The notes under the pieces: generated by a model
Databases searched by the model: none
The model's input: the letters and a program-made list of their open reading frames with translations, nothing else
Told to the model about the DNA's origin: nothing
Program-made: the position numbers and the translations under genes
DNA from: Pseudarthrobacter chlorophenolicus A6
Lineage (GTDB): Bacteria; Actinomycetota; Actinomycetes; Actinomycetales; Micrococcaceae
Direction of reading: 5' to 3'
Assembly: GCF_000022025.1 (NCBI RefSeq)
Contig: NC_011886.1
Span: 1,116,097 to 1,180,096, forward strand
Length of the DNA stretch: 64,000 nt
Shown: piece by piece, positions 451-59,709 of the stretch
Layout of the letters: every line of letters begins with the position of its first letter
How positions within the stretch are numbered: the first letter of the stretch is position 1

Positions 451-616
451 GGGTCCGCTCACCTGTCTTCGATGCACACTGCCGTCCCAGACGCGCTGAT
501 TCGATGACGCACCTTGTATCTGCGGGGCGCCGTCGAACATGCGCGTCGGGGACGCTTTTGCGTGCCGGGAGTGCCGCGAATCGCGCGGGCGCCACCCTGT
601 GCAGCAGACTGTTACC

Positions 617-1978
617 GTGAGCAACAACCCCCGGACTGGCCTGGCCGTCGCCGGGCTCAGCCTGGGCACGGCACTGAACCCCCTCAACTCCTCCATGATC
701 GCCGTGGCGCTGGTGGTGCTCCGGGCCGACTTCGGACTGGACGTCGCGGCCGTCACCTGGGTGGTGACGTCCTTCTACCTCGCTTCCGCCGCCGGCCAGC
801 CGGTCATGGGCAGGCTGGCGGACAGATTCGGCCCGCGCCGGATGTTTATGCTGGGCATGGCACTGGTGGCCCTCACCTGTGCGCTGGCTCCGCTGGCCCC
901 CAACTTCGCGTTGCTGTGCGTGGCCCGGGCCGTGATGGCGTTGGGAACGGCCACCGCCTATCCCAGCGCGGTGGTGATGGTGGGGGCCATCGCGCACCGC
1001 GCGAAGGTGGAGTCCGCCCGCCCGCTGGGCCGGCTGCAAATGGCGAACACGTCCGCAGCCGCCGTAGGTCCCGTGATCGGCGGCCTGCTGGTGAGCCTGG
1101 TGGGCTGGGAGGCGCTGTTCCTGATCAACGTGCCCTTCGCCTTGGCGGCACTGCTGATCGTGAGACAGGCCGCTCCGCCGGACGAGGCCCGGGAACGCGG
1201 CAGCCTGTCCGAGCTCCTGCGCGACTCGGACATCCCCGGCATCCTGGCGTTCGTGGGCGCTTTGCTGCTGGTGATGATGGCCGCCCTGAACGTGGCCCCC
1301 GGCTACCGCTGGTGGATGCTGGCGGCCGGAACCGGCATTGCTGCCATCTTTGCGTGGCGGGAACTGCGGTTTGCCCGGCCGTTCCTGGACCTGCGGCTGT
1401 TGGGCCGCAACAGGCCGCTGCTGCTGGTGTACCTGGCGTTCGCAGTGTTCAGCAGCGTCTACTACTTCGTCTTCTTTGGCCTGCCCCAGCTGCTGCAGGA
1501 ATCCGGCGAGTACGATCCCGGCGTGGTGGGCCTGCTGATGCTCCCGCTGGCTGCCATGTCCGTGGTGGCCACCCCATGGGCCGTGAAGGCCATGGGACGG
1601 TTTGGTGTGCGGCGGGTGCTGCTGGCCGGCGTCGTGCTCCTGACCGTGGCGGCTGCCCTGATGTGGCTGCTGACCGGAACGCTGGCCATCCCGCTGGTGG
1701 TGGTGATGACCGCGTTGATGGGCATCCCGTACGGCACCGTCAGTATCGCCACCAACCAGGGCATGTTCGTTTCCACCCGGCCGCAGGACCGGGGTGTGGC
1801 GGCTGGCATCTACCAGACCTGCCGGTACGTGGGCGCGATTACCGCCACGGTGATGATCGGCGTCTTCGCCTCGGGAGGGGTGCACCAGGACAGCTGGGCC
1901 CGGATGGTGGTGGCCATGCTGGTGCTGTGTGCCGCCACCTTCGGCGTGAGCCTGTTCTGGCGGCAGCGGAGCGCATAG
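617..1978 (+). CDS. MFS transporter, drug-exporter type
   Basis: A 453-residue membrane protein of the major facilitator superfamily with about 12-14 hydrophobic helices, likely a proton-coupled exporter. Motif A (GRLADRFGPRR) lies at about residues 65-75 after the second helix, and a proline/glycine-rich helix (AVGPVIGGLL) resembles the antiporter motif of drug-efflux members. An ATG at 539 is in frame, but the first 26 residues it would add are hydrophilic and cysteine-rich. GTG at 617 fits better because the protein then begins SNNPRTGLAVAGLSLG, and a weak CAGACT box ends 6 nt before it, as in the leaderless genes here. The substrate cannot be told from sequence. Confidence 0.88.
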   Translation: MSNNPRTGLAVAGLSLGTALNPLNSSMIAVALVVLRADFGLDVAAVTWVVTSFYLASAAGQPVMGRLADRFGPRRMFMLGMALVALTCALAPLAPNFALLCVARAVMALGTATAYPSAVVMVGAIAHRAKVESARPLGRLQMANTSAAAVGPVIGGLLVSLVGWEALFLINVPFALAALLIVRQAAPPDEARERGSLSELLRDSDIPGILAFVGALLLVMMAALNVAPGYRWWMLAAGTGIAAIFAWRELRFARPFLDLRLLGRNRPLLLVYLAFAVFSSVYYFVFFGLPQLLQESGEYDPGVVGLLMLPLAAMSVVATPWAVKAMGRFGVRRVLLAGVVLLTVAAALMWLLTGTLAIPLVVVMTALMGIPYGTVSIATNQGMFVSTRPQDRGVAAGIYQTCRYVGAITATVMIGVFASGGVHQDSWARMVVAMLVLCAATFGVSLFWRQRSA

Positions 1979-1981
1979 CCT
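1976..1981 (+). promoter_or_regulatory. -10 box (TAGCCT) of a leaderless gene, overlapping a stop codon
   Basis: TAGCCT ends 6 nt before the ATG at 1988, so transcription should start at or next to the start codon. Its first three bases are the TAG stop codon of the MFS gene upstream. No Shine-Dalgarno sequence precedes 1988. Confidence 0.6.
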
Positions 1982-1987
1982 GTCCTG

Positions 1988-2752
1988 ATGGGACACCTGA
2001 TGACCGTCGGCAACGCCGAAACCTCCGTCCAGGCCTACGTCAGCGAACCGCCCACCGGCCGTCTCCGGGACAAACCAAAAGGCGGGCTGCTGCTGATCTC
2101 CGAAATCTGGGGCATGGTGGACCACATCAAAGACGTGGCGGACAGGTTCGCCGCCGAGGGCTACCTGGTGCTGGCGCCGGACCTCCTGACCGATATTGGC
2201 ATGACGCCCGACGTTGCGGCTGAGGTGCTGGAGGGGCTCTCCGATCCCGATCCGGAGCAGCGCAGCAAGGTCCAGCCGAGGCTCCGCGAGATCACCTCGC
2301 CGCTGCACTCGCCGGAGTTTGCGGAGAAGGCCGTAGCTGCCCTCCGCGCCTGCTTCGACCATCTGGAAGGCATCCCGGTGCTGGCAGGACGGGTAGCGGT
2401 GGCAGGGTTCTGCTTCGGCGGTACCTACAGCTTCACCCTGGCCACCAGGGAACCCCGGCTGCGGGCCGCCGTACCCTTTTACGGCACATGCGACTTCAGC
2501 GAGGAGGAACTCGGCCGGATCACGTGCCCCGTCCTGGCTTTCTACGGCGAGGAAGACCATGCCCTGGTGGACAAACTGCCGCTGGTGAAGGCCAGAATGT
2601 TCGGTGCCGGAGTGGACTTCGACGCCGTGGTGTATCCGGGCACTGGCCACGCCTTCTTCAACGACAGCACCCCCATCCGGTACAACGCCGATGCCGCCAC
2701 AGACTCCTGGCAGCGCACCCTGGCGTTCCTGGAGCGGAGCCTCAACCGGTAG
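1988..2752 (+). CDS. Dienelactone hydrolase family protein
   Basis: A 254-residue alpha/beta hydrolase of the dienelactone hydrolase family, cytoplasmic enzymes that hydrolyse lactones or esters with a cysteine nucleophile. The catalytic triad is visible: Cys142 in GFCFGG, Asp190 in GEEDHAL and His221 in GTGHAFF. Glu39 in SEIWG matches the conserved active-site glutamate of the family. ATG at 1988 is chosen because a TAGCCT box ends 6 nt upstream; an alternative ATG lies at 2000. No catechol-degradation genes surround it, so a role in the beta-ketoadipate pathway is not implied. Confidence 0.9.
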   Translation: MGHLMTVGNAETSVQAYVSEPPTGRLRDKPKGGLLLISEIWGMVDHIKDVADRFAAEGYLVLAPDLLTDIGMTPDVAAEVLEGLSDPDPEQRSKVQPRLREITSPLHSPEFAEKAVAALRACFDHLEGIPVLAGRVAVAGFCFGGTYSFTLATREPRLRAAVPFYGTCDFSEEELGRITCPVLAFYGEEDHALVDKLPLVKARMFGAGVDFDAVVYPGTGHAFFNDSTPIRYNADAATDSWQRTLAFLERSLNR

Positions 2753-2782
2753 GGGTTCCCTGCAGGCCCAGGTGCGGCGCCG

Positions 2783-5481: not shown

Positions 5482-6234
5482 TCAGGTGTACATGAGCGAG
5501 CCCGGAGTGGTGAGTTGCTCGCCGGTCTCCAGCCAGGTCTTCAGGCCGGAAAGGATCATTGGCCAGCCGCCGTAGAGTTGGTCGTTGGCGCCTTCGCGGA
5601 GGTCGCTGTGCGTGACGGTGAGGTGGCATGAATCGCCCACCGGCTCGATCTCCCAGGTGACCTTGGAGGTCCCCTCGGCCTTGACGTCCTCGCCCCACAG
5701 CGCCCGCATGGTCTGCACCAGCCGGTGCGGGGGATCGACCTCCAGGTTTTCGCCCTCGCCGAGGATCTGGCCTGCCTTGGGGTTGCCCATTTCGAAGCGG
5801 CCGCCGGGCGTCCAATCGGATTCCAGGGTGTTGCCGAACTGGTATTTGCTGCGGATATCGCTGTCGGTAATGGCTTCCCAGAGCTTCTCCGGGGTGGTCT
5901 TGATGTAGATCTCGAAGATTTTTTCCATGGGACTTTCCAATCTGGATTTGAGGTCGCTGAGGGCAGCGGCCCATGGTTCTGCGTATTTGCTGACCCAGCG
6001 GTCGTGGACCAGGCGGATGGGAACAGGGTTCAGGAAGTGCAGCTTTTCCCGCCCCCGACGACGGGTGGCCACCAGGCCTGCGTCCTCAAGGATGCGGAGG
6101 TGCTTGGCGATCCCGAACCGGGTCATGCTGAACCTCGCCTCAAGCGCACTGAGGCTCTGGCCGTCCTCGCGGAACAGCTCATCAAGCAGGTCCCTGCGGG
6201 TGGGGTCGGAGAGTGCTTTGAACACGTCGTCCAT
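5482..6234 (-). CDS. ArsR-type HTH regulator fused to an SRPBCC (AHSA1-like) domain
   Basis: A 250-residue two-domain protein. Residues 1-95 form an ArsR-type winged helix (SDPTRRDLLDELF, then FGIAKHLRILEDAGLV as the recognition region). From about residue 104 (MEKIFEIYIKTT) an SRPBCC domain follows, a hydrophobic ligand cavity of the AHSA1 type. In many actinobacteria these two are separate neighbouring genes; here they are one reading frame. ATG at 6234 is chosen over GTG at 6264, since the upstream codons lie inside the palindromic operator (6243-6270). The likely role is a ligand-responsive repressor that controls itself. It lacks the metal-binding cysteines of classic ArsR proteins. Confidence 0.88.
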   Translation of the reverse strand: MDDVFKALSDPTRRDLLDELFREDGQSLSALEARFSMTRFGIAKHLRILEDAGLVATRRRGREKLHFLNPVPIRLVHDRWVSKYAEPWAAALSDLKSRLESPMEKIFEIYIKTTPEKLWEAITDSDIRSKYQFGNTLESDWTPGGRFEMGNPKAGQILGEGENLEVDPPHRLVQTMRALWGEDVKAEGTSKVTWEIEPVGDSCHLTVTHSDLREGANDQLYGGWPMILSGLKTWLETGEQLTTPGSLMYT

Positions 6235-6242
6235 ACACACGA

Positions 6243-6270
6243 TGATAGGTGACCATATAGTCACCTATCA
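6243..6270. promoter_or_regulatory. Perfect palindromic operator of the ArsR-SRPBCC gene
   Basis: TGATAGGTGAC and its exact reverse complement GTCACCTATCA are separated by 6 nt (CATATA), ending 9 nt before the ATG at 6234. The AT-rich core could be the -10 region, so a bound repressor would block RNA polymerase directly. Confidence 0.75.
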
Positions 6271-6437: not shown

Positions 6438-6845
6438 TTACGGGCCAAACGGCAGGAAGGCCAGCGCCAGCAGAGCCGGGACCGTGGCGGCGAGGGTACC
6501 CGGGACGCTGTCCCAGCGTTTGGGGTAGTGGCCCTGGAGGTCGGCCAAAAGCATCGTGGGGGCGGTGAGCGCCATGTTGAGGCAGCAGTACACCACCAGG
6601 GTGTAGCCCACCACCGGTTCGCCGATGTTCACCGCCACCAGCCCGGCCATCACGCCGAGGGCAATCACCAGGTTCTTGTACCCGGTGGGGATGGCCCACA
6701 TCATCAAGGCCGGCACGTTTTCCGGCGGGGTGCTCAGGAACTTCTGCGCCCACCGGCTGCGCCGGAGCAGGAAGCTCTCCACCGGAAAGACCCCCACGTA
6801 GATGACCACCGCCAGCACCGCGAAGACCTGGGAAATGATGTTCAT
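6438..6845 (-). CDS. DUF1304 membrane protein
   Basis: A 135-residue integral membrane protein with about four hydrophobic helices, matching the DUF1304 family in length and in the conserved first helix (YVGVFPVESFLLRR) and central YKNLVIALG segment. Biochemical function is unknown for the family. A TACCCT box ends 6 nt before the ATG and there is no Shine-Dalgarno sequence, so the message is probably leaderless. It is divergent from the LuxR-type gene at 6933, with 87 nt between start codons. Confidence 0.85.
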   Translation of the reverse strand: MNIISQVFAVLAVVIYVGVFPVESFLLRRSRWAQKFLSTPPENVPALMMWAIPTGYKNLVIALGVMAGLVAVNIGEPVVGYTLVVYCCLNMALTAPTMLLADLQGHYPKRWDSVPGTLAATVPALLALAFLPFGP

Positions 6846-6851
6846 GCCGGA

Positions 6852-6857
6852 AGGGTA
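6852..6857 (-). promoter_or_regulatory. -10 box (TACCCT) of leaderless DUF1304 gene
   Basis: TACCCT on the minus strand ends 6 nt before the ATG at 6845. Confidence 0.5.
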
Positions 6858-6932
6858 GGCCCGCCCGGGAGCCTTGAGCTATCCCCGGATTGGGGGATTC
6901 CGTGCTGCACCGGCGGGCCGGATACTGGACGT

Positions 6933-7976
6933 ATGTGGGAGGAGCGCGCTGAGCGTGCCAGGCGGGACATCGCCACGCTGGCCACGGACGGACTGGACCT
7001 GGCCGCCCTCTACACCGCCGCCCTGGTGCTGGTGCACAAAGCGGTGCCGTTCGACCAAGCCTGCTGGGCCGGCGTCGACCCCGAAACGATGGTGATGAAC
7101 GCTGTGACCAACTGGCGGCCGTGGCCTGTCACCGACGAGTACGCGGCCAAATTCGCTCAGTCCGAATACCAAGGAAGCGAACCGAACTCGTTCGCGCAGC
7201 TCATGCTCAGGCCGCATCCGGTGGCGCGGATCTCGGACGCGCCCCGCAGCGAGGTGGCAGGGAGCATCCGGATCAACGAGTTGCTCCGTCCGCTGGGCCT
7301 GGTCCACGAGTTGCGCGGGGCGTTCCGTGTGGACCAGTCGTGCTGGGGCGTCGGCAGCCTGTTCCGGGAAGGTTCCGGGGATTTCAGCGACAGGGAGGTG
7401 GAGTTCCTTGCGGCAGTCACGGCTGCGCTCGCGGCCGCAACCCGCATTGCTGCCCGCTCGCACCACCGGCTGTGGCACCAGCCGGACGGGCCCGTGATCG
7501 TCCTCGCCGGCGAGCGCGGCGAGTTGCGTGCCGCCACCCCGGCAGCAACTACGTGGCTTCAGGCGCTGGAGGAAGCAGCGCCGGGCCAGTTCAGCATGGT
7601 GCTTTATGCCCTGGTGGCGCAGGCGAAGGCATCGCCCACCGGGACAGCAAGGACAAGGATGCGCGACGTCGATTCCGGCTGGGTGATCCTGCAGGCCAGC
7701 CGTCTCATCACCGGCGATGATCCCCAACAGATGGTGGTCACCGTGGAGCCGGCCACCTCCCGCCAGCTGCTGGCACTGCTCCTGTCCGCGTACGGGCTCA
7801 CCCCGCGGGAACAGGAAGTTTGCCTGGAACTTCTGGCCGGCAGCGCGGGCGCGGACGTAGCCCGGCACCTGTTCATCTCACCGCACACGGTCCACGATCA
7901 CCTGAAGTCGATCTTCGACAAAGTGGGGGTGAACAGCCGCGGGGAACTTGTCGCCAGGTTGACGGTCACTGGGTAG
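6933..7976 (+). CDS. LuxR-type transcriptional regulator
   Basis: A 347-residue DNA-binding regulator. The C-terminal 60 residues are a LuxR/NarL helix-turn-helix (LTPREQEVCLELLAG, then FISPHTVHDHLKSIFDKVGV). The N-terminal 280 residues have a GAF-like composition and presumably bind a small molecule; there is no phosphorylatable receiver domain. ATG at 6933 is chosen because a GATACT box ends 6 nt upstream and no Shine-Dalgarno sequence is present. It stands divergent to the DUF1304 gene, and its stop codon overlaps the -10 box of the cupin gene. Targets are unknown. Confidence 0.9.
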   Translation: MWEERAERARRDIATLATDGLDLAALYTAALVLVHKAVPFDQACWAGVDPETMVMNAVTNWRPWPVTDEYAAKFAQSEYQGSEPNSFAQLMLRPHPVARISDAPRSEVAGSIRINELLRPLGLVHELRGAFRVDQSCWGVGSLFREGSGDFSDREVEFLAAVTAALAAATRIAARSHHRLWHQPDGPVIVLAGERGELRAATPAATTWLQALEEAAPGQFSMVLYALVAQAKASPTGTARTRMRDVDSGWVILQASRLITGDDPQQMVVTVEPATSRQLLALLLSAYGLTPREQEVCLELLAGSAGADVARHLFISPHTVHDHLKSIFDKVGVNSRGELVARLTVTG

Positions 7977-7979
7977 CCT
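7974..7979 (+). promoter_or_regulatory. -10 box (TAGCCT) of leaderless cupin gene, overlapping a stop codon
   Basis: TAGCCT ends 6 nt before the ATG at 7986. Its TAG is the stop codon of the LuxR-type gene, the same arrangement as at 1976. Confidence 0.6.
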
Positions 7980-7985
7980 TGGCGC

Positions 7986-8321
7986 ATGCAGAAGATATCG
8001 GTGGAAGCGCTGGCCCGCCAGCAGCTCGAAGCGGCACTCGCATCTCCCAACGGCCGCGCCGCGGACACGGTCTACGGAGGGCACGAAAAGACCCTTCGCC
8101 AGTCCGTGATGGCGCTGAAAGCAGGTACCCGGCTCAGCGAACACCAGAACCCCGGGGACGCCACGGTGTTTGTGATCCGTGGCTGCGTTCGTCTGGTGGC
8201 AGGCGCGGATTCCTGGCAGGGCAAGGCGGGCGACCTGCTGATCGTCCCGCCGGGCCTGCACAGCCTGGAGGCAGAGGAGGACTCGGCGTTCCTGTTCACG
8301 GTGGCCAAGTACCGCGACTGA
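7986..8321 (+). CDS. Small cupin-domain protein
   Basis: A 111-residue single-domain beta-barrel protein of the cupin superfamily. The core pattern is visible from TRLSEHQNPGDATVFVIRGCVRLV (about residues 48-71) to GDLLIVPPGLHSLEA (about 82-96). Only some of the usual metal-ligand histidines remain (His54 and His93), so a metal-bound catalytic role is uncertain. A leaderless -10 box overlaps the stop codon of the upstream regulator gene, so this gene can be transcribed on its own. Function beyond the fold is unknown. Confidence 0.85.
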   Translation: MQKISVEALARQQLEAALASPNGRAADTVYGGHEKTLRQSVMALKAGTRLSEHQNPGDATVFVIRGCVRLVAGADSWQGKAGDLLIVPPGLHSLEAEEDSAFLFTVAKYRD

Positions 8322-8332
8322 CATCCATTTTC

Positions 8333-8376
8333 TCCGTAAATGCCGTTTAGAGCCCCCATAACGGCGTTTACGGAGC
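8333..8376. terminator. Bidirectional hairpin terminator
   Basis: CTCCGTAAATGCCGTT pairs with AACGGCGTTTACGGAG through 16 positions with one G-U pair and a 12-nt loop. It sits between the convergent cupin and MFS genes, with T-runs on the left side for the minus-strand message. An operator role is possible but less likely in a convergent gap. Confidence 0.7.
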
Positions 8377-8389
8377 AATCGATGGTGGG

Positions 8390-9927: not shown

Positions 9928-9933
9928 TATGCT
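9928..9933 (+). promoter_or_regulatory. -10 box (TATGCT) of leaderless SRPBCC gene
   Basis: TATGCT ends 6 nt before the ATG at 9940, and there is no Shine-Dalgarno sequence. Confidence 0.55.
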
Positions 9934-9939
9934 GGGTCC

Positions 9940-10410
9940 ATGTCTACGTATGAGGTCCACCGCAGCGCGGTCATCCCTGCCGCCCCGGAAGATATCTTTC
10001 CCCTGGTCAACAGCTTCCGCGAGTGGGGCGCCTGGTCCCCGTGGGAGAAGGTGGATCCCGGCATGAGCCGCCGCTACTACGGCCCGGGGTCGGGTGCCGG
10101 AGCGGGGTATGAGTGGAGCGGCAACCGGAAGGCCGGAAGCGGAACCATGGAGATCGTCGAGTCGGCGCCGTCCAGTTCCATCGGCATCCGCCTCCAGTTC
10201 ACCAAGCCGTTCAAGGCCCTGAACCCCACCACTTTCACGTTCACGCCCGTCCCCGGCGGCACCGAAGTCACGTGGAAGATGACCGGCGAAAACAAGGGCG
10301 CCGCGAAGATCTTTGCCCTGTTCGTCAACATGGACAAGATGGTGGGCTCGGACTTCGAACGCGGCCTCACCTCGCTGGCTTCGGCCGTGGCGGCAAAGAA
10401 GAGCAGCTGA
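9940..10410 (+). CDS. SRPBCC family protein
   Basis: A 156-residue single-domain protein of the START/Bet v1-like SRPBCC superfamily, which binds hydrophobic ligands. The typical start (YEVHRSAVIPAAPEDIFPLV), the FREWGAWSPWEK segment and the closing helix around DFERGLTSLASAV are all present. An upstream in-frame extension exists, but ATG at 9940 is chosen because a TATGCT box ends 6 nt before it. The DUF1801 gene follows 8 nt downstream, so the two are likely cotranscribed. The ligand is unknown. Confidence 0.88.
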   Translation: MSTYEVHRSAVIPAAPEDIFPLVNSFREWGAWSPWEKVDPGMSRRYYGPGSGAGAGYEWSGNRKAGSGTMEIVESAPSSSIGIRLQFTKPFKALNPTTFTFTPVPGGTEVTWKMTGENKGAAKIFALFVNMDKMVGSDFERGLTSLASAVAAKKSS

Positions 10411-11909: not shown

Positions 11910-11915
11910 TACGCT
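11910..11915 (+). promoter_or_regulatory. -10 box (TACGCT) of leaderless GerW-like gene
   Basis: TACGCT ends 6 nt before the ATG at 11922. It decides that start over upstream in-frame codons. Confidence 0.55.
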
Positions 11916-11921
11916 GGCTCC

Positions 11922-12245
11922 ATGACTGATACTTTTGCGTCCCTCGTGGACACGTTCAAGAATGTGGGAGTCACCAAGGCTTACGGCACGCCGGTGAACG
12001 TGGGAGGCCAGGAGATCGTGCCCGTGGCGCTGGTGTCCTTCGGTTTCGGTGGCGGCAGCGAGCCCGGCGACGGCGCGTCCGGCGGTGGCGGTGGAGGCAT
12101 GGTGATGCCGGTGGGCGTCTACACCACCGCGAACGGCCGGACGGTCTTCCGGCCCAACACCCTCGCCCTGCTCGCCTGCCTCGTGCCGCTGGTTGCCGTG
12201 GCCGGGACCGCCGTGCGCCGCGCCATCGCCGCGGCCCGGAAGTAA
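11922..12245 (+). CDS. GerW/YtfJ family protein
   Basis: A 107-residue protein resembling the GerW (YtfJ) family, named for a Bacillus spore germination protein but also found in non-sporulating actinobacteria. Features are VTKAYGTPVNVGGQEIVPVA at residues 20-39, a Gly-rich tract of six glycines at about 59-64, and a hydrophobic segment near the C-terminus (LALLACLVPLVAVAGTAV) that may be a membrane anchor. A leaderless TACGCT box fixes the start. The function in this organism, which is not expected to sporulate, is unknown. Confidence 0.8.
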   Translation: MTDTFASLVDTFKNVGVTKAYGTPVNVGGQEIVPVALVSFGFGGGSEPGDGASGGGGGGMVMPVGVYTTANGRTVFRPNTLALLACLVPLVAVAGTAVRRAIAAARK

Positions 12246-13074: not shown

Positions 13075-13572
13075 TCAGCCGTTGAGGATCTGCTCCCGGA
13101 GGATGTCCGCGTGGCCGCAGTGCTGTGCGACCTCCCGGATCATGTGCAGGTACACCCAGCGCAGGGGCAACGGGCCACGGCGGTTGCCCCGGACCACATC
13201 ATCAAGATCAAGGCCGGATGCCGCCTGCCGGGATGCCCCGCATGCCTGGCGGTAGGCATTCCGGATACTGGCGATGGTGTCCTCCCTGCCGAGGATGAAG
13301 GATTCGTCAGGGGTGGCCTGAATGCCGATCTCGGCACGGGACCGCCCGGTGACGGCTTCGTCGAACCAGACTTTTTCGACGAAAGTTGCGTGTTTTACCA
13401 GGCCCAGCAACGTGGTCCTGGACGGCACCAGGGGCCGGCGGGCCTGCTCCTCCGTGAGGCCATCCAGGCACGCTTCCAACATGGCCCGGTGCTGGTCCAG
13501 GAAGGCCTCGAACTGTTCGCGGGCGGGCTGGTTGATGGCGTCGTCGGGCGTCAGGGAAGAGACTGCAGGCAT
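13075..13572 (-). CDS. DinB / DUF664 family protein
   Basis: A 165-residue four-helix-bundle protein of the DinB-like superfamily, which in actinobacteria includes mycothiol-dependent thiol transferases. Family features include TTLLGLVKHATFVEKVWFDE and, near the end, LRWVYLHMIREVAQHCGHAD, where His residues at these conserved places form the usual metal triad (HATFVEK, REVAQHCGH). ATG at 13572 is chosen because a CATACT box ends 6 nt upstream without a Shine-Dalgarno sequence. A role in thiol transfer is an inference from the family. Confidence 0.85.
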   Translation of the reverse strand: MPAVSSLTPDDAINQPAREQFEAFLDQHRAMLEACLDGLTEEQARRPLVPSRTTLLGLVKHATFVEKVWFDEAVTGRSRAEIGIQATPDESFILGREDTIASIRNAYRQACGASRQAASGLDLDDVVRGNRRGPLPLRWVYLHMIREVAQHCGHADILREQILNG

Positions 13573-13578
13573 GGCTGC

Positions 13579-13584
13579 AGTATG
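13579..13584 (-). promoter_or_regulatory. -10 box (CATACT) of leaderless DinB gene
   Basis: CATACT on the minus strand ends 6 nt before the ATG at 13572. Confidence 0.45.
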
Positions 13585-15586: not shown

Positions 15587-15592
15587 CACAAT
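15587..15592 (+). promoter_or_regulatory. -10 box (CACAAT) of leaderless DUF3592 gene
   Basis: CACAAT ends 6 nt before GTG 15599. It lies within reach of the MarR sites at 15480-15505. Confidence 0.45.
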
Positions 15593-15598
15593 GGACGC

Positions 15599-16108
15599 GT
15601 GACTGGGCGCAGAACTGATAGGAACCGCAAATCCGGGCTGACCTGGAAGGGGAAGCTGAACCTGGCGGTGACTGCGCTGGTTCTCCTGCTGGGTCCCGTC
15701 ATGATGGGCCTGGGCAGCTTCATGATCGGCGCTGACAAGGACCTGGAGCGGAGCGGCGTCCAGGCCGCAGGCACCATTGTGCATTTCGATGACGTCACCA
15801 AGGCCTCGGAGCGCAGGATGAAAGTGGAGTTCACATCCGCTGACGGTGCCAGCCATGCGACGTGGGCCACCGTGGACCACGACCAGTACCCCATAGTGGG
15901 TGACGCCACCACCGTCATTTACGCCGAGCAAGATCCCGGCAGGGCCATCGTTCCGGGCTACGAGAGCGACGGCGTCTGGGTCCGTGGCGTGGGCACCGTC
16001 CTGACCTGTATCTTCGCGGGCCTCGGCGTCATCTTCGTCCTGCTGATGGTGGGCGCCTACCTCAAGGGGCGCTCGCAGCGGGGCACGGATGCCCCCTCGC
16101 CTAAGTAA
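15599..16108 (+). CDS. DUF3592 membrane protein
   Basis: A 169-residue protein with one hydrophobic helix at about residues 17-41 and another at 137-157, and a beta-rich domain between them, the layout of DUF3592 proteins. The central part (GTIVHFDDV to DPGRAIVPG) matches the family. GTG at 15599 is chosen because the CACAAT box ends 6 nt upstream; an ATG further up would add an unsupported leader. Family function is unknown. It is divergent from the MarR operon and may share its regulator. Confidence 0.8.
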   Translation: MTGRRTDRNRKSGLTWKGKLNLAVTALVLLLGPVMMGLGSFMIGADKDLERSGVQAAGTIVHFDDVTKASERRMKVEFTSADGASHATWATVDHDQYPIVGDATTVIYAEQDPGRAIVPGYESDGVWVRGVGTVLTCIFAGLGVIFVLLMVGAYLKGRSQRGTDAPSPK

Positions 16109-16783: not shown

Positions 16784-16789
16784 TAGGCT
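16784..16789 (+). promoter_or_regulatory. -10 box (TAGGCT) of leaderless GNAT gene
   Basis: TAGGCT ends 6 nt before the ATG at 16796, with no Shine-Dalgarno sequence. Confidence 0.6.
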
Positions 16790-16795
16790 GGTGCC

Positions 16796-17305
16796 ATGGA
16801 TTATGTGCTGCGCCAGGCCACGCCGGATGACGCCGAGAACGTCGTGCTGATGCATACCGCCGCGCATGAGGAAAGCTACGGGCACCTGCTGTCGCCCGGC
16901 TTCTTCGCTGAACGGCGACGGTCCGTCCCGGAACGCGTGGCCCGCCGTCGGCCGTATCTTGACGCGCCGCAACCGCGGATCATTGCCGAAGACGCCAACG
17001 GTGAGATTGTGGGCCTTGCCGATGCCGGGCCGCCGCGGCATGAGGATGCGCCGTGTCCCTTGGAGCTCTACTCCATTTTCGTCCTGGCCAGGGCGCAGGG
17101 GACCGGACTGGGGACAGCGTTGCTGGCTGCCGCCCTTGGTGACGCTCCGGCATACCTGTGGGTGCTCGAGGACAACACGAAGGCGCAGGCCTTCTACCAC
17201 CGCCAGGGTTTTACGTTCGACGGCGGACGCGGCCACCTTCCGCCCGAATGGGAGAGTGTGCCGGAGCTGCGGATGGTCCGGGGGCTGCCGGGGCAGTACA
17301 CCTAG
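16796..17305 (+). CDS. GNAT family N-acetyltransferase
   Basis: A 169-residue acetyltransferase. The acetyl-CoA binding loop is ARAQGTGLGTALL at about residues 97-109, preceded by the beta-4 strand LYSIFVL, and NTKAQAFYHRQGF near 126-138 is the usual closing helix and strand. The substrate is unknown. The gene is probably leaderless (TAGGCT box) and its 3' end overlaps the 3' end of the convergent XRE regulator gene by 4 nt. Confidence 0.92.
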   Translation: MDYVLRQATPDDAENVVLMHTAAHEESYGHLLSPGFFAERRRSVPERVARRRPYLDAPQPRIIAEDANGEIVGLADAGPPRHEDAPCPLELYSIFVLARAQGTGLGTALLAAALGDAPAYLWVLEDNTKAQAFYHRQGFTFDGGRGHLPPEWESVPELRMVRGLPGQYT

Positions 17306-18264: not shown

Positions 18265-18657
18265 CTACGCCGTGTGCGCGTCCCTGACGGCGGGCGGAGT
18301 CGCCCCCTGGAGCACCCAGCGGTTGCCGTCCGGATCGGCAAAGTGGGCAAACAGCACCCCGCCCATGTCCTGGACCTCGCTGATGTCCGCGCCGCGTTCC
18401 ACGAGCTCGGCGCGAAGTGCGGGGAGGTCCGGCGCGACCAGTTGCAGTCCTTCCAGGCTGCCCGGCTCCATGGCGGTCATCCCCGTGCCGATGACAACAG
18501 ATGTGGGCGAGCCCGGGGGAGTCAGCTGCACCACCCGCATTCCCGGGAAGTGCTCCACATCGTGGTCCAGCACGAAGCCCAGCTTTTCGGTGTAAAACGC
18601 TTTGGCCCGGTCAACGTCGGACACGGGAACCTGGACAACCTCAAGGCGCATTTCCAT
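18265..18657 (-). CDS. VOC family protein (glyoxalase-like)
   Basis: A 130-residue protein of the vicinal oxygen chelate superfamily. The N-terminal VQVPVSDVDRAKAFYTEKLGF and the C-terminal FAHFADPDGNRWVLQ are the classic matching halves of this fold. The usual metal-ligand residues are only partly present. Of three possible starts, ATG at 18657 is chosen because a TAGAGT box ends 7 nt before it. The ligand is unknown, and the gene appears to stand alone. Confidence 0.88.
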   Translation of the reverse strand: MEMRLEVVQVPVSDVDRAKAFYTEKLGFVLDHDVEHFPGMRVVQLTPPGSPTSVVIGTGMTAMEPGSLEGLQLVAPDLPALRAELVERGADISEVQDMGGVLFAHFADPDGNRWVLQGATPPAVRDAHTA

Positions 18658-18664
18658 GGGCGTC

Positions 18665-18670
18665 ACTCTA
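18665..18670 (-). promoter_or_regulatory. -10 box (TAGAGT) of leaderless VOC gene
   Basis: TAGAGT on the minus strand ends 7 nt before the ATG at 18657. Confidence 0.5.
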
Positions 18671-18783: not shown

Positions 18784-18789
18784 TATCTT
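18784..18789 (+). promoter_or_regulatory. -10 box (TATCTT) of leaderless DUF2231 gene
   Basis: TATCTT ends 7 nt before the ATG at 18797. Confidence 0.5.
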
Positions 18790-18796
18790 GTGGTGC

Positions 18797-19339
18797 ATGC
18801 ACAGCAAGGTGGCGGGCGGAAGCAACTACAGAAGGCTGCTTGCGGGACTTGAGACGGCCAGACCGTTGGACGCAGTGGTGGACAGGGCCCAGCCGGTAGC
18901 CAAACACCTCATGACTGACCGCCGGGTCAGGTCCGCCGTCCTGGGGGATACAACAGGAATTCCCCTGCACGGCATCCTCACGGACCTGCCTTTCGGAGCC
19001 TGGTGGATGGCCATCTTCCTGGACTTCTTCAAGGACGACGGTTCCCGCCAGGCCGCCAAGCGCCTCGTGGCGCTGGGCGTAGTGGGCGCCGTGCCCACAG
19101 CCCTCACCGGTTGGGCCCACTGGACTACCAAGGACCGGCCCATCCAGCGCGTCGGCGTCGTGCATGCCGCAGTCAACGCCACCGCCGTCGTCGTCTACCT
19201 GGCCTCGTGGACGGCGCGGCAACGAGGCCGGCACAAATTCGGTATCCGGCTGGCGCGGGCCGGAGCGGTCCTGCTGCTCGTCAGCGGCTTCCTGGGCGGG
19301 CACTTGAGCAGCGGGCGCACCGCCAGTCAAGGGCAATAG
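18797..19339 (+). CDS. DUF2231 membrane protein
   Basis: A 180-residue membrane protein with about four helices. The family-defining GIPLHGILTDLPFGAWWMAIFLD motif region lies at about residues 53-75, and a conserved His-containing helix (RVGVVHAAVNATAVVVY) follows. DUF2231 proteins are of unknown function but resemble small membrane cytochromes. A GTG/ATG upstream is in frame, but the TATCTT box 7 nt before 18797 marks this start. A 13-bp hairpin follows the stop codon. Confidence 0.87.
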   Translation: MHSKVAGGSNYRRLLAGLETARPLDAVVDRAQPVAKHLMTDRRVRSAVLGDTTGIPLHGILTDLPFGAWWMAIFLDFFKDDGSRQAAKRLVALGVVGAVPTALTGWAHWTTKDRPIQRVGVVHAAVNATAVVVYLASWTARQRGRHKFGIRLARAGAVLLLVSGFLGGHLSSGRTASQGQ

Positions 19340-24065: not shown

Positions 24066-24071
24066 TAGGGT
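24066..24071 (+). promoter_or_regulatory. -10 box (TAGGGT) of leaderless GNAT gene
   Basis: TAGGGT ends 7 nt before the ATG at 24079. It favours this ATG over the in-frame GTG at 24073. Confidence 0.55.
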
Positions 24072-24078
24072 CGTGGAC

Positions 24079-24636
24079 ATGCTTGAACTGGTCTCACCGA
24101 ATGTTTCCTTCTACCGTTCCTTTGCCGAGTCGCACCAGGAGTGGGCCGGCGCCCATCAGGACGGTGCCGGGCTGTTCGCGGGGGACGATGTCAGCAGCCT
24201 GGCGGGTTTCGAGGCCTGGGTGGACAAGCTGGCGAACGCCGAACAGGCGGACGGGACGGGCGGCATTGTTCCGTGCACCTACTGGTGGATCACCAGGGGT
24301 TCCCGGTACGTGGGGTCCATCGCTTTCCGCCATTACCTCACGCCGGCGCTGCTGAACTCGGGCGGCCACATTGGTTATGGCGTTCGCCCGGCCGACCGCG
24401 GCCAGGGCGTTGCCACCTGGGCACTGCGTGAAGTCTGCACCCGCCTGGCTGAACGGGGTGAACCGGACCGCGTCCTCCTGACCTGTGACGATGACAATGC
24501 TGCCTCTGCCCGGACCATCGAACGGTGCGGAGGCAAACTGGAGGACGTCCGGCCGGATGAGGACGGCGGGCGCTTCCGTCGGTACTGGATCGACCTGGCC
24601 AACGGCGCCCGGGAAGACGGTACGAACCCGCGGTGA
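24079..24636 (+). CDS. GNAT family N-acetyltransferase
   Basis: A 185-residue acetyltransferase similar in layout to YesJ/RimJ-like enzymes. The beta-4 and acetyl-CoA loop region is HIGYGVRPADRGQGVATWALR at about residues 97-117, and the closing helix is DDDNAASARTIERCGGKLE. An extended N-terminal region (1-60) precedes the core. The acceptor is unknown. A TAGGGT box 7 nt upstream of the ATG points to a leaderless transcript. Confidence 0.9.
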   Translation: MLELVSPNVSFYRSFAESHQEWAGAHQDGAGLFAGDDVSSLAGFEAWVDKLANAEQADGTGGIVPCTYWWITRGSRYVGSIAFRHYLTPALLNSGGHIGYGVRPADRGQGVATWALREVCTRLAERGEPDRVLLTCDDDNAASARTIERCGGKLEDVRPDEDGGRFRRYWIDLANGAREDGTNPR

Positions 24637-42750: not shown

Positions 42751-42769
42751 CACAGAAAACACACATTCT

Positions 42770-42791: not shown

Positions 42792-42903
42792 CCAACCAAC
42801 AACCCAACACGTTGCTGGCCGGAACCAAACAACTAAATACACAACACCACAATGTTGTAACCACACAGATTTCCCAACCCCGCCACGGGGTTCGGGTATT
42901 AGG

Positions 42904-43022
42904 GTTACGGCGGTCATAGCGTGGGGGAAACGCCCGGTCCCATTCCGAACCCGGAAGCTAAGACCCACAGCGCCGATGGTACTGCACCCGGGAGGGTGTG
43001 GGAGAGTAGGACACCGCCGGAC
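42904..43022 (+). rRNA. 5S ribosomal RNA
   Basis: About 119 nt starting GTTACGGCGGTCATAGCG, with the conserved CCCGGTCCCATTCCGAACCC loop region and a closing helix ACGGCGGT / ACCGCCGG. It ends the rrn operon. Confidence 0.96.
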
Positions 43023-45343: not shown

Positions 45344-45811
45344 CTACGGCAGGACGGGATGGTCGAAGGACAGGCGCAGCCCGGAACGGTAGGCAGAATC
45401 GATGACGGACTCAAGTTCGTCCAGGACTGTCTGGTTCCCGGGGAGGACCACATGGGCCAGGAATTCCGACTCAAGTGAGGCGATACCTGCCGACGCTGCT
45501 CCGAGCTTGGCATCAATCGCGGCGGCCAGGGCATGCCAGGATTTTCGATTCACGCGCTCCAGGACTTTCGCGTTTGTTTCACGAAGGTGGCTGTCCGCGA
45601 CGTCCACCCGTAACGCCAGCGGCCCTTCGGACTGCAGCAGCGGCATGACAATGCGGAACTGCCGGCCGTCACCCTTGAAAGCGACAGCGCCGAGCACTCC
45701 CCGCTGACCGAAGATGATGTCAGTTGCACCGTAATTCTCGAGCGCCAGCTTGATATGTTTCCGGGAAGCCTCGCTGCTGTAGGAATCGCCCCGGGTGTAA
45801 GGAACTGTCAT
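45344..45811 (-). CDS. Phage/plasmid-type conserved protein
   Basis: A 155-residue protein matching, by memory, a hypothetical family abundant in actinobacteriophages and plasmids. That family shares a start like SRKHIKLALENYGATDIIFG, a beta strand ending RFRIVMPL, a helix like RKSWHALAAAIDAKLGAASAGI and the near-constant ESEFLAHVVLPGNQTVLDEL. All four are present in order. The phage members have no known biochemical role. The start is ATG 45811, with a CATAGT box ending 6 nt upstream. It suggests mobile-element remnants downstream of the rrn operon. Confidence 0.75.
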   Translation of the reverse strand: MTVPYTRGDSYSSEASRKHIKLALENYGATDIIFGQRGVLGAVAFKGDGRQFRIVMPLLQSEGPLALRVDVADSHLRETNAKVLERVNRKSWHALAAAIDAKLGAASAGIASLESEFLAHVVLPGNQTVLDELESVIDSAYRSGLRLSFDHPVLP

Positions 45812-45920
45812 CTTCCAACTATGCGCCCTCTTAGCTGGACATGGGTACGCCTTTTGAAGTCGCATCCGCGGCAAAGGTTACTGGGTGCCGGCGGTTTGGT
45901 CATGGGCTGTCGCGCCAGGG

Positions 45921-47230: not shown

Positions 47231-47236
47231 TAGACT
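47231..47236 (+). promoter_or_regulatory. -10 box (TAGACT) of leaderless lipoprotein gene
   Basis: TAGACT ends 7 nt before the ATG at 47244. Confidence 0.55.
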
Positions 47237-47243
47237 CGAACGC

Positions 47244-48089
47244 ATGTCAGCTTCTGGGGGAAAGCCGGCTCGGCGCCGGGGTGTCATCGGTGCTTGGGCG
47301 GTTGCGGTCACGCTCCTTGCAGCGTGCGAGTACAGCGGGCCGGACGAACAGCAACCGGCATCGCCCGCGGTCGCCGCAACACCGGAGCCGCGCTCCTTCG
47401 AGGAGAACGCAGGCGAGGTTGCCCGCCTGCTCGGGACCGCGCCCGACGAACCGGGCATGCCATCGGACGAGGAACCGGCCGGCAAGCTGACCCTGGTGCT
47501 GGCGCCGGGGGACTACATGGTCACCGGTGCGTGCGCGGGAACCTACGGAGCCAAGCTCACCATCACCGGCGAGGACGGCGTGCCGGAGCTTTCGTACTTC
47601 GAGTGCACTGACACCCTGGACCGCTTCATGAGGCACGACGGCGGCCCCGTCACCATCAGCGCCGTTCCGTCCACAGGCAAGCCGTCCGCCACCGGCGTCA
47701 AGATCCAGGCAAACCCGGATCCGCGGGCGTCGGAGCTGAAGGACCTGTCGGAGTGGTCGTCACAGCAGCTGCAGCCGCGGATTCCCGGTGAACTGAGCGG
47801 CAGCCACCGCGGGAACACGGTTTTCACGTCGACTCTGATGGCCAAACCCGGTAGGTACGAGCTCCACATTGTCTGTGACGGGACCCCGTACGCCGGGTTG
47901 GCACTGGCCACCGCCGCAGGTGCTGAGATCCAGGCGCCGGTAAACATCATTTGTGAGGGGACGGTGCTGAAGTCGCCGGTGGTGCTGCCCACCGAGGGAC
48001 TGGACATCACCATCGACCCTGTCGGCAGTCCGTCAGCCCGGTTCGCCTACCGGCTGGTCCCGGCCGCCGAAGCTACACCGTCCGGATAG
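47244..48089 (+). CDS. Hypothetical lipoprotein
   Basis: A 281-residue predicted lipoprotein. The signal sequence has a basic start (KPARRRG), a hydrophobic core (VIGAWAVAVTL) and a lipobox LLAAC with the acylated Cys28, after which the chain should be anchored on the outer face of the membrane. The mature part is Pro/Ala-rich at first, then contains two beta-rich segments with paired cysteines (TGACAGTY...FECTD, HIVCDG...NIICEG) that could form disulfides. No family is recognised. Its 3' end overlaps the convergent DUF2306 gene by 17 nt. Confidence 0.8.
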   Translation: MSASGGKPARRRGVIGAWAVAVTLLAACEYSGPDEQQPASPAVAATPEPRSFEENAGEVARLLGTAPDEPGMPSDEEPAGKLTLVLAPGDYMVTGACAGTYGAKLTITGEDGVPELSYFECTDTLDRFMRHDGGPVTISAVPSTGKPSATGVKIQANPDPRASELKDLSEWSSQQLQPRIPGELSGSHRGNTVFTSTLMAKPGRYELHIVCDGTPYAGLALATAAGAEIQAPVNIICEGTVLKSPVVLPTEGLDITIDPVGSPSARFAYRLVPAAEATPSG

Positions 48090-58731: not shown

Positions 58732-58737
58732 TAGCGT
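58732..58737 (+). promoter_or_regulatory. -10 box (TAGCGT) of leaderless small gene
   Basis: TAGCGT ends 7 nt before the ATG at 58745. Confidence 0.5.
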
Positions 58738-58744
58738 CGACTGC

Positions 58745-58888
58745 ATGGGCAACAAACGGAACGGCGAACTGGAAGGGCAGAGCTCCATCAACGAGCTGCT
58801 CGACCAGCCCATCGGCGACAAGCCGATCCAGCTGCCGCTGCCCTTCCATCTCCAGGTCCGGCCGGGGGAGTTCCGCCGAGCGTCCTGA
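58745..58888 (+). CDS. Small hypothetical protein, 47 residues
   Basis: A 47-residue hydrophilic protein, MGNKRNGELEGQSSINELLD at its start, with QPIGDKPIQLPLPFHLQVRPG after it. It has no membrane helix or signal. A TAGCGT box ends 7 nt before the ATG, matching the leaderless pattern of many confirmed genes here, and this supports it as a real gene despite its size. It ends 11 nt from the 3' end of the convergent alpha/beta hydrolase gene. Function unknown. Confidence 0.6.
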   Translation: MGNKRNGELEGQSSINELLDQPIGDKPIQLPLPFHLQVRPGEFRRAS

Positions 58889-58899
58889 CGCGCTCGCAG

Positions 58900-59697
58900 T
58901 CAGCCGACCGGGCTGATGAACCCGATGATGTCTGTTGCCACCCGCTCGGGGCATTCCCACAGGACCAGGTGTGCCACGTCCGGGTAGACCTTCAGCACGG
59001 CGCCCGGAATCCGCCCGGCCAGTGTTTCCTGGTCCGTTCGCGGCAACAGGTTGTCCTGCCCGCCCCAGAGGAGGAGCGTGGGCGACTGGATGGTTCCGGA
59101 TTCCGTGGGCGGGTTGGCTTGGCAGAGTCCGTTGAGGATCGCTTTCCAGGCATGCGCGGGCATGTTGAGGCCGTCGCGGACGCGGTCCTCGACGTACCAG
59201 GCGGGGACGTCGTGGACCCGGGGGAACCAGGCCAGCGACTCTCGCACCCACGCCTCGTCGAGAGGGTCGGTCAGAGCGTCCACCTCGTCGGCGAAGGCGG
59301 GCCGTCCCAGTATGCTCAGCGGAGACCCGACCAGCACGAGGGCAGCGACCTTTTCGGGGTGTGCGACGGCGAGTTGCTGGGCCACGTACCCGCCGCTGGA
59401 GGAGCCGACGACGGCGGCGTGCGGCAGGTCGAGCGCGTCCAGGATTGCGGCGGCGTCCTCAGCCTGCTCCGCCAGGGAGTAGCCGTTCAGTGGCTTGTCC
59501 GCGTCGCCTTGGCCGCGGAGGTCCGGCGCATAGACTTTGCAGCCGGTCAGCAGGGGGATCAGCCGGTCGAAGCTCTTGCGGGATTCGCCCCAGGCGTGGA
59601 GCAACAGCAGGGGAGTGCCGGTCCTGCCAGTGTCCTGAACGAGACACGGCACCGTGATGCCGGTGCGGAGCCGGAGCTGCCGGATGTCGGCGTCCAT
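58900..59697 (-). CDS. Alpha/beta hydrolase
   Basis: A 265-residue cytoplasmic alpha/beta hydrolase of the esterase/lactonase type. The nucleophile is Ser in GSSSGGYVAQQ near residue 98, the acid is Asp in WGGQDNLLPR, and the catalytic His is in VAHLVLWECP near the end. The opening VPCLVQDTGRTGTPLLLLHAWG with the oxyanion-hole HAWG is typical. A TAGCCT box ends 6 nt before ATG 59697, and its TAG is the stop codon of the small frame upstream. The substrate is unknown. Confidence 0.92.
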   Translation of the reverse strand: MDADIRQLRLRTGITVPCLVQDTGRTGTPLLLLHAWGESRKSFDRLIPLLTGCKVYAPDLRGQGDADKPLNGYSLAEQAEDAAAILDALDLPHAAVVGSSSGGYVAQQLAVAHPEKVAALVLVGSPLSILGRPAFADEVDALTDPLDEAWVRESLAWFPRVHDVPAWYVEDRVRDGLNMPAHAWKAILNGLCQANPPTESGTIQSPTLLLWGGQDNLLPRTDQETLAGRIPGAVLKVYPDVAHLVLWECPERVATDIIGFISPVG

Positions 59698-59703
59698 GGG
59701 TTC

Positions 59704-59709
59704 AGGCTA
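59704..59709 (-). promoter_or_regulatory. -10 box (TAGCCT) of leaderless hydrolase gene, overlapping a stop codon
   Basis: TAGCCT on the minus strand ends 6 nt before the ATG at 59697 and includes the TAG of the 56-codon frame at 59707-59877. Confidence 0.55.

Follow-up and report, generated by a model that had tools for sequence, protein, structure and literature searches.

Leaderless transcripts in actinobacteria, given as established in the original prediction, have long been described (Zheng 2011, Cortes 2013, Pfeifer-Sancar 2013, Shell 2015). According to Zheng et al. 2011, TANNNT lies approximately 12 bp ahead of the start codon (counted from its first T), and the genes concerned make up 19.2% on average across 86 of the 89 actinobacterial genomes (PMC3160421); Arthrobacter is not mentioned in the main text of that article. 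For M. tuberculosis, Cortes et al. 2013 describe a TANNNT -10 element and no conserved -35 element, with a purine preferred at +1 and C at -1 (PMC3898074), and Shell et al. 2015 report ATG and GTG starts, many small leaderless ORFs and a preferred -1 cytosine in mycobacteria (PMC4633059). The sigma-A promoters of C. glutamicum carry a TAnnnT -10 element and ~33% of the mRNAs are leaderless, beginning with AUG (~79%) or GUG (~21%) (Pfeifer-Sancar et al. 2013, PMC3890552). In the -10-adjacent ORFs of Deinococcus-Thermus, TANNNT placed right before the ORF was identified by reporter substitutions as the promoter of a leaderless mRNA (PMC12340547). No transcription-start map of the genus studied here was found among the matches listed for leaderless and transcription-start literature on Arthrobacter and Micrococcales, and one may still be in print.

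Boxed start codons in the window

The window is a stretch of 64,000 nucleotides from Pseudarthrobacter chlorophenolicus A6, for which the original prediction listed 17 gene starts. All 17 are in-frame ATG or GTG codons, each preceded by a -10-like box at a distance of exactly 6 nt in 12 cases and 7 nt in five, spacing being counted as the nucleotides between the end of the box and the start codon. The claimed lack of a Shine-Dalgarno sequence was borne out, since a Shine-Dalgarno-like word (AGGA, GGAG or GAGG 3-12 nt upstream of the start) was found at none of the 17. The description of the box as TANNNT is exact for 12 sites, while the other five (617, 6933, 13572, 15599 and 45811) have variant first letters. 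The boxes, with their counterparts in tblastn rows from fetched stretches of related genomes, are as follows.

605..617, forward strand: CAGACT, 6 nt before the GTG of an MFS transporter gene (617-1978; PF07690); CAGACT at 7 nt in the G012 ortholog
1976..1988, forward strand: TAGCCT, 6 nt before the ATG of a dienelactone hydrolase-family gene (1988-2752); no ortholog in the fetched stretches
6234..6247, reverse strand: TATCAT, 7 nt before the ATG of an ArsR/SmtB-type regulator gene (5482-6234), not cited in the original prediction; TANNNT at 6 or 7 nt in 10/10 orthologs
6845..6857, reverse strand: TACCCT, 6 nt before the ATG of a DUF1304 gene (6438-6845); box kept in 2/3 matches (TAATCT, TACGCT)
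6921..6933, forward strand: GATACT (not TANNNT), 6 nt before the ATG of a LuxR-type regulator gene (6933-7976; PF00196); GATACT kept in G001 and G006
7974..7986, forward strand: TAGCCT, 6 nt before the ATG of a cupin-like gene (7986-8321; PF07883 barely above the cut-off); box at 6 or 7 nt in 7/7 orthologs
9928..9940, forward strand: TATGCT, 6 nt before the ATG of a polyketide cyclase-like gene (9940-10410; PF10604); TATGCT at 6 nt in 4/4 orthologs
11910..11922, forward strand: TACGCT, 6 nt before the ATG of a 107-aa gene (11922-12245); TANNNT with differing letters in 4/4 orthologs
13572..13584, reverse strand: CATACT, 6 nt before the ATG of a mycothiol-S-transferase/DinB-like gene (13075-13572); TAGGGT at 6 nt in the sole ortholog, with the ATG one codon downstream
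15587..15599, forward strand: CACAAT, 6 nt before the GTG of a 169-aa gene (15599-16108); GTG with CAGAAT at 7 nt in the G001 ortholog
16784..16796, forward strand: TAGGCT, 6 nt before the ATG of a GNAT acetyltransferase gene (16796-17305); TAGGCT at 6 nt in 2/2 orthologs
18657..18670, reverse strand: TAGAGT, 7 nt before the ATG of a glyoxalase-family gene (18265-18657); TAGAGT at 6 nt in the sole ortholog (G009)
18784..18797, forward strand: TATCTT, 7 nt before the ATG of a DUF2231 gene (18797-19339); no ortholog in the fetched stretches
24066..24079, forward strand: TAGGGT, 7 nt before the ATG of a GNAT acetyltransferase gene (24079-24636); no ortholog in the fetched stretches
45811..45823, reverse strand: CATAGT, 6 nt before the ATG of a 155-aa gene (45344-45811); CATAGT at 6 nt in the sole ortholog (G006)
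47231..47244, forward strand: TAGACT, 7 nt before the ATG of a 281-aa gene (47244-48089); TAGACT at 6 nt in the sole ortholog (G011)
58732..58745, forward strand: TAGCGT, 7 nt before the ATG of a 47-aa gene (58745-58888); family described below
59697..59709, reverse strand: TAGCCT, 6 nt before the ATG of an alpha/beta hydrolase gene (58900-59697); no ortholog in the fetched stretches

Matches were obtained for 13 of the 17 cited sites, and for 12 of these one or more matches have [TC]ANNNT at 6 or 7 nt. Overall, the box is kept in 27 of 33 ortholog rows, its letters and its spacing (6 or 7) drifting. A GTGAC/GTCAC palindrome adjoins the TATCAT box of the ArsR/SmtB-type gene (6234, reverse strand). 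Start codons can be called by eye, as had been proposed, when frame and coding context are considered as well; the spacing rule alone fails, as only 13 of the 24 TANNNT-N6/7-RTG sites heading an ORF of at least 20 codons in the window are plausible starts (12 cited ones and 6234), three being internal to called genes and eight lying in frames not called as genes. Many genes between 605 and 59709 have no box; the same range includes an rRNA operon (37583-43022).

The usefulness of the rule for tiny genes was confirmed for the 47-aa gene at 58745, which belongs to a family almost uniformly of the leaderless type: strict TANNNT is present at 6 or 7 nt in 33 of 36 loci. Of 16 protein homologs, 13 are 47 aa long and two (P0003 and P0004) are predicted at 54 aa, starting 7 codons upstream of the start of the 47-aa form. 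The conserved reading frame of the family is indirect support for translation of the presumed leaderless mRNA. The family illustrates the practical value of the pattern, which lies in annotation, since in about one tenth of the genes sampled the start is preceded by a putative promoter box rather than by a Shine-Dalgarno sequence. Tools relying on ribosome-binding sites can therefore misplace such starts or miss small genes. Starts called by StartLink+ and PGAP are reported to differ for ~10% of genes on average in Actinobacteria (PMC9581028).

Box spacing in the genome and its relatives

Box spacing was analysed in 1.264 Mb of the P. chlorophenolicus A6 genome with a home-made gene caller based on periodic hexamers, in which no motif is used; 1017 genes were called. 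In its first run, the caller chose other starts for the genes at 617, 7986, 15599, 47244, 58745 and 59697 and missed those at 16796 and 18797, and because of this disagreement with cited starts the box counts given here are likely too low. The predicted regular spacing was recovered: TANNNT was found at 6 nt before 81 and at 7 nt before 28 of the 1017 called starts, compared to means of 4.2 (maximum 13) and 3.9 (maximum 10) in 200 dinucleotide shuffles. Each of the remaining spacings within 0-45 nt accounts for 0 to 11 starts, and 8 nt is at background level (4 versus 4.3). The strict-motif class thus comprises 109 of 1017 genes, about one in nine of those sampled, approximately 8 of the 109 being expected by chance. 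CANNNT and GANNNT are also enriched at 6 nt (31 versus a mean of 12.9 and 24 versus 9.8 at 12-40 nt, respectively), both below the TANNNT excess (81 versus 4.1).

The pattern extends to related genomes. In a separate sample of 20 stretches of the same genus, 17 (6 nt) and 12 (7 nt) of 290 starts are boxed, compared to approximately one expected. TANNNT-N6-ATG is more frequent than TANNNT-N12-ATG in all 60 genomes of the class counted, A6 included; the latter is a phase-matched baseline for the 6-nt but not for the 7-nt spacing, so that N13 and a local phase-matched count were added. Relative to baseline, about 420 ATG sites are in excess at 6 and 7 nt. In the relative G013, an apparent 8-nt peak in the first 100 kb (6 of 75 genes) levelled out in 500 kb, with 14, 14 and 12 of 399 genes at 6, 7 and 8 nt. 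Only 13 and 24 genes were called in the samples of G014 and G015 (GC ~0.62), the training rule presuming a high GC content at third codon positions (GC3).

A chance or compositional artefact, e.g. upstream TAG stop codons landing before starts, has a negligible probability. It is true that an upstream stop at distance 9 overlaps the box in 4 of 64 same-strand boxed genes, among them 1988, where the TAG of TAGCCT doubles as the stop codon of the preceding gene. Only these four boxed genes have such a stop, and 41 of the 109 have a divergent upstream neighbour; upstream stops were accordingly rejected as the source of the boxes. Neither the shuffles nor out-of-frame ATGs yield a peak: among ATGs near called starts with a box at 6/7 nt, 87/45 are in frame, 4/1 in frame +1 and 1/1 in frame +2. 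Dual use of the overlapping box and stop codon as a signal was considered as well and dropped, as the gene pairs at distance 9, six in all and four of them boxed, are too few for such a claim.

Shine-Dalgarno-like words are rare in the boxed class (8 of 109 versus 355 of 908 other starts, P = 1e-12). The fixed distance to the start codon, in a position possible for a ribosome-binding element, would also be compatible with TANNNT as a translational signal, i.e. an AT-rich non-Shine-Dalgarno element on a leadered mRNA. Several findings make this highly improbable. Boxes are absent from starts overlapping the same-strand upstream gene (0 of 64 boxed versus 128 of 586 other genes overlap, P = 5e-7), which may partly reflect the rarity of T/A-rich words in high-GC coding sequence. 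They precede 81 of 647 ATG and 28 of 349 GTG starts and none of the 21 called TTG starts. Furthermore, the second base downstream of the box is preferentially G whichever the spacing (share of 0.69 for 6 nt and 0.64 for 7 nt), and this G hence tracks the box rather than the start codon. This G presumably resembles a promoter discriminator. Moreover, measurements in M. tuberculosis (PMC3898074) and C. glutamicum (PMC3890552) identified TANNNT as the -10 word of promoters.

The spacing peak, the scarcity of Shine-Dalgarno words, the lack of TTG starts, the promoter-like placement and the conservation of the box in orthologs thus support the leaderless reading of the original prediction, and the boxes are very probably promoters whose first transcribed base is that of the start codon. 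A promoter of the housekeeping sigma factor, putatively recognised by sigma-A, would head the gene, its -10 element ending 6-7 bp ahead of ATG or GTG. RNA polymerase would begin transcription at the first base of the start codon (A or G), so that the mRNA would have no 5' leader, and the ribosome would recognise the 5'-terminal AUG or GUG in place of a Shine-Dalgarno sequence.

The base preceding the start codon

A purine at -1 precedes 2 of 28 starts at the 7-nt spacing; the count is 34 of 81 for the 6-nt spacing and 374 of 908 for other starts. Such a low share is expected if the polymerase would otherwise begin one base early. The share at 6 nt does not differ from that of other starts (P = 0.91), so that the -1 base adds nothing at this spacing. 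The contrast between the spacings was weaker in other selections of starts, both with ATG only (1/22 at 7 nt versus 18/59 at 6 nt, P = 0.017) and in a relaxed start set (11/63 versus 50/122, P = 0.0016). No significant difference was obtained for the same-genus stretches (1/20 versus 6/27, P = 0.21) and no contrast for G013 (8/30 versus 7/23, P = 0.77). In the local phase-matched count, the excess of ATG at 7 nt (37.6) has no purine part (-5.2), that of ATG at 6 nt (77.1) has a purine part of 16.5, and that of GTG at 6 nt (20.6) is nearly all purine (17.8); raw pattern counts gave little excess for GTG at 7 nt (75 versus 72.8). Class-wide, the purine share is 0.30 at 6 nt and 0.26 at 7 nt, compared to 0.57 at 12 nt (a baseline of all ATGs, not gene starts), and it is lower at 7 than at 6 nt in 46 of 60 genomes. 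Since the class-wide share is low at both spacings, the contrast between them is mainly a trait of P. chlorophenolicus A6.

These data bear on the alternative that the promoters give leaders as short as 1-5 nt, translated by near-leaderless initiation. A G or A at -1 is frequent among GTG starts with the 6-nt spacing (16 of 22), which would allow a 1-nt leader, and all three G013 genes with a 9-nt spacing have G at -1. Short leaders are nevertheless unlikely, given the pyrimidine at -1 in 26 of 28 starts at 7 nt, the low class-wide purine shares and the background level of the 8-nt spacing in A6. For truly leaderless starts, the -1 base provides indirect evidence that is mixed but mostly supporting.

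A start-choice rule is conceivable, if on balance doubtful, in which RNA polymerase takes the first purine from approximately 7 nt past the -10 box, so that gaps of 7 nt (8 nt in some lineages) would have to keep pyrimidines before the start; 0 of 15 G013 starts at 8 nt have a purine at -1. The range would differ by lineage, being 6-7 nt in A6 and 6-8 nt in G013. The lack of a difference from other starts at 6 nt and the non-significant result in the same-genus stretches weigh against the rule. If true, genome sequence alone could map leaderless starts and the polymerase start window across a phylum, and small leaderless gene families like the 47-aa one could be found.

Comparison with known leaderless systems

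The pattern is the already known actinobacterial leaderless arrangement, the biology of which is established in other actinobacteria. The scarcity of purines before the start at 7 nt, the 8-nt spacing in one relative and the leaderless-type 47-aa family are modest additions. The boxed genes resemble the TA-like signal genes of Zheng et al. 2011, with TANNNT approximately 12 bp upstream above chance as the high-GC form of the motif, whereas the strict-motif share is lower here (109 of 1017) than reported there (PMC3160421), as expected with a strict word and motif-blind starts. While Cortes et al. 2013 and Shell et al. 2015 had measurements of RNA ends as well as ribosome-profiling and N-terminal peptide data (PMC3898074, PMC4633059), the present analysis is based on sequence alone. 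The -10-adjacent ORFs of Deinococcus-Thermus show the same arrangement in a different phylum (PMC12340547). The ratio of ATG to GTG among boxed starts (81 to 28, 74% and 26%) resembles that of C. glutamicum leaderless mRNAs (79% and 21%), where the spacer between box and transcription start is 3-11 nt for all promoters, in comparison to 6-7 nt between box and start codon in the leaderless class described here (PMC3890552).

Box-marked starts in the window and its genome

All 17 cited positions, inspected on both strands, are an ATG or GTG that heads an open frame, the shortest 47 and the longest 453 codons in length. The box ends exactly 6 nt before the start codon in 12 and exactly 7 nt before it in five, and no Shine-Dalgarno-like word (AGGA, GGAG or GAGG) was found 3–12 nt upstream of any of these starts, so that the original observation of many genes with such a box and without a Shine-Dalgarno sequence was confirmed at 17 of 17 positions. 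Twelve boxes are strict TANNNT; the remaining five are variants.

Variant boxes at cited starts (start position, box)
617, CAGACT
6933, GATACT
13572, CATACT
15599, CACAAT
45811, CATAGT

The genome (4.98 Mb, three contigs) was sampled by the window and 60 further 20-kb stretches. A periodic hexamer model, blind to promoters and ribosome-binding sites, called 1047 genes, of which 1017 starts had sufficient upstream sequence and were used. TANNNT was found at 6 nt before 81 and at 7 nt before 28 of the 1017 starts, far above the means of 200 dinucleotide shuffles (4.2 and 3.9; maxima 13 and 10), and the predicted peaks in the spacing histogram were thus recovered; every other spacing from 0 to 45 nt gave 0 to 11. 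Near called starts, in-frame ATGs carried TANNNT in 87 (6 nt) and 45 (7 nt) cases, compared to 4/1 and 1/1 in the two other frames. None of the 21 called TTG starts had a box at 6 or 7 nt. CANNNT (31 vs. 12.9) and GANNNT (24 vs. 9.8) were also enriched at 6 nt; the box is variable at its first base, and the five variant boxes are therefore credible, though not certain.

Scanning the window mechanically for TANNNT, 6 or 7 nt and RTG opening a frame of at least 20 codons gave 24 hits: the 12 strict cited starts, one additional plausible start (6234, minus strand, ArsR-type regulator), three hits within called genes and eight in uncalled frames. The coding score was negative in seven of the latter and +4.7 in one, located within the 23S rRNA gene. 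Because of this breakdown, the proposal that starts can be called from the word stands for positions within a coding frame, where TANNNT is a good marker, but not for the word on its own.

The products of the 17 cited genes were searched by tblastn against 23 loci, with one row per locus; 20 of the loci are stretches from the same genus and three belong to the 47-aa family encoded at 58745, including a paralog in the window's own genome. Matches were obtained for 13 sites, and for 12 of these at least one row shows [TC]ANNNT ending 6 or 7 nt upstream of the aligned start. In the 13572 ortholog, the box is placed relative to a start one codon off. [TC]ANNNT was retained in 27 of 33 rows.

Rows without [TC]ANNNT (site, match)
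6845, distant match, 37% identity
6933, both orthologs (two rows), GATACT kept
6933, partial match
15599, partial match
58745, paralog

Box letters drift between relatives (TACCCT, TAATCT and TACGCT at 6845), and the spacing switches between 6 and 7 nt at 617, 7986, 15599, 18657, 47244 and 58745.

Nature of the signal and the base at -1

Shine-Dalgarno-like words precede 8 of 109 strict-box starts compared to 355 of 908 other starts (P = 1e-12). As expected of promoters, strict-box starts never overlap a same-strand upstream gene (0/64 vs. 128/586 for the others, P = 5e-7). The commonest letters of the box at 6-nt spacing spell TAGGCT, G is frequent at the second base past the box (0.69 at 6 nt, 0.64 at 7 nt), and the -35 region has only a weak T (0.33). 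Judged by these features, the shape of the signal is that of a -10 element followed by a discriminator, and not that of a ribosome-binding site. As a separate observation in the same sample, 9 of the 11 upstream stop codons with a distance of 6 to the following start are TAG, probably a TAGGAG-type overlap of stop codon and Shine-Dalgarno sequence.

C at -1 has a share of 0.54 at 6-nt and 0.75 at 7-nt spacing, compared to 0.46 at other starts. Purines at -1 are rare with 7-nt spacing (2/28) compared to 6-nt spacing (34/81, Fisher P = 4e-4) and to other starts (374/908, Fisher P = 1e-4), while the latter two do not differ (P = 0.91). The same was seen with ATG only (1/22 vs. 18/59, P = 0.017) and in a relaxed start set (11/63 vs. 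50/122, P = 0.0016). Raw counts with phase matching put the ATG excess at 37.6 for 7 nt, with no purine excess in it (-5.2), and at 77.1 for 6 nt, of which 16.5 have a purine. The 7-nt and 6-nt values were 1/20 and 6/27 in the same-genus stretches (P = 0.21) and 8/30 and 7/23 in G013, a relative in another family (P = 0.77), where purine at -1 was found in 0 of 15 cases at 8-nt spacing. Class-wide purine shares are 0.30, 0.26 and 0.57 at 6, 7 and 12 nt. If the polymerase chooses the first purine it meets some 7 nt past the box, a purine at -1 with 7-nt spacing would yield a 1-nt leader; the rarity of such purines thus suggests that the A or G of the start codon itself serves as base +1. Among GTG starts with the box at 6 nt in the 60 further stretches, 16 of 22 have a purine at -1 compared to 18 of 59 ATG starts (P = 9e-4), and a 1-nt leader is possible for these.

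The 47-aa gene and neighbouring elements

For the 47-aa product of 58745, the protein collection contains 16 homologs. Of these, 13 are 47 aa long, and any homolog that carries a name is called hypothetical; no family was found in Pfam or NCBIfam. Alignment located 32 genome loci, all in Arthrobacter or Pseudarthrobacter records, and three plasmid loci. Together with the window's own locus, 33 of 36 have strict TANNNT at 6 or 7 nt before the in-frame N-terminal RTG; the box lies at 8 nt in one and is absent in two. Two more loci fall outside this count: L065 carries the box with 6-nt spacing, and L066 (G000:C3:1901412-1901522), a second, more distant copy in the window's genome (54% identity across residues 9–45), has no box near the aligned start. 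As originally proposed, 58745 is very likely a real small gene of the leaderless type.

Regulator gene with box
5482-6247, minus strand, ArsR/SmtB-type regulator gene, start at 6234

Directly upstream of the 6234 box lies a GTGAC/GTCAC palindrome kept in ten relatives, and TANNNT is found beside it at 6 or 7 nt in 10 of 10 matches. It resembles an operator belonging to a leaderless promoter, possibly for autoregulation.

Other elements were observed in the window. In the interval 6921-7986, a LuxR-type gene lies between the genes starting at 6845 (minus strand) and 7986 (plus strand). In the related genome G001, the blocks matching these two neighbours are separated by 77 bp with no LuxR gene between them; that gene is located about 60 kb away. 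The TAG stop of the LuxR gene in the window is the TAG of the 7986 box, which is also present in relatives lacking the gene there. An approximately 57-nt palindromic intergenic repeat (8329-8385) between two convergent genes recurs many times, on either strand, in genomes of the genus and resembles a dispersed element of terminator-like or REP-like type. A complete 16S-23S-5S rRNA operon (37583-43022, plus strand) probably accounts for the GC dip at 36–44 kb. ARAGORN found no tRNA in the whole window.

Breadth across the class and known systems

Whole-genome counts of TANNNT before ATG in 60 genomes of the class, own included, were higher at spacing 6 than at 12 in all 60 (at least 1.5-fold in 59) and higher at 7 than at 13 in all 60 (at least 1.5-fold in 50). 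The window's genome gave 436, 346, 178, 177 and 184 at spacings 6, 7, 8, 12 and 13. In G013 (GC 0.736), 14, 14, 12 and 3 of 399 genes have the box at 6, 7, 8 and 9 nt (loci L087-L091 and L107-L126), the three 9-nt genes all with G before the start codon; its spacing is spread evenly over 6, 7 and 8 nt, unlike the 6–7 nt of the window's genome.

Leaderless transcription, as originally claimed, is supported by the sequence, and the mechanism would be that established in relatives. In earlier work, TANNNT is described around 12 bp before the start in 19.2% of actinobacterial genes on average (Zheng 2011, PMC3160421). Leaderless transcripts were measured in M. tuberculosis, for 26% of the genes that have a primary transcription start site (Cortes 2013, PMC3898074), and in C. 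glutamicum, where they make up about 33% of the mRNAs (Pfeifer-Sancar 2013, PMC3890552). In mycobacteria, an RTG placed at the transcription start is reported to be both required and enough for leaderless translation, and a preferred -1 cytosine and small proteins are named as well (Shell 2015, PMC4633059). The phenomenon is thus already known, the novelty of the pattern is low and the window's genome is one more case, with 81 ATG and 28 GTG among its strict-box starts compared to about 79% AUG and 21% GUG in leaderless mRNAs of C. glutamicum (Pfeifer-Sancar 2013, PMC3890552).
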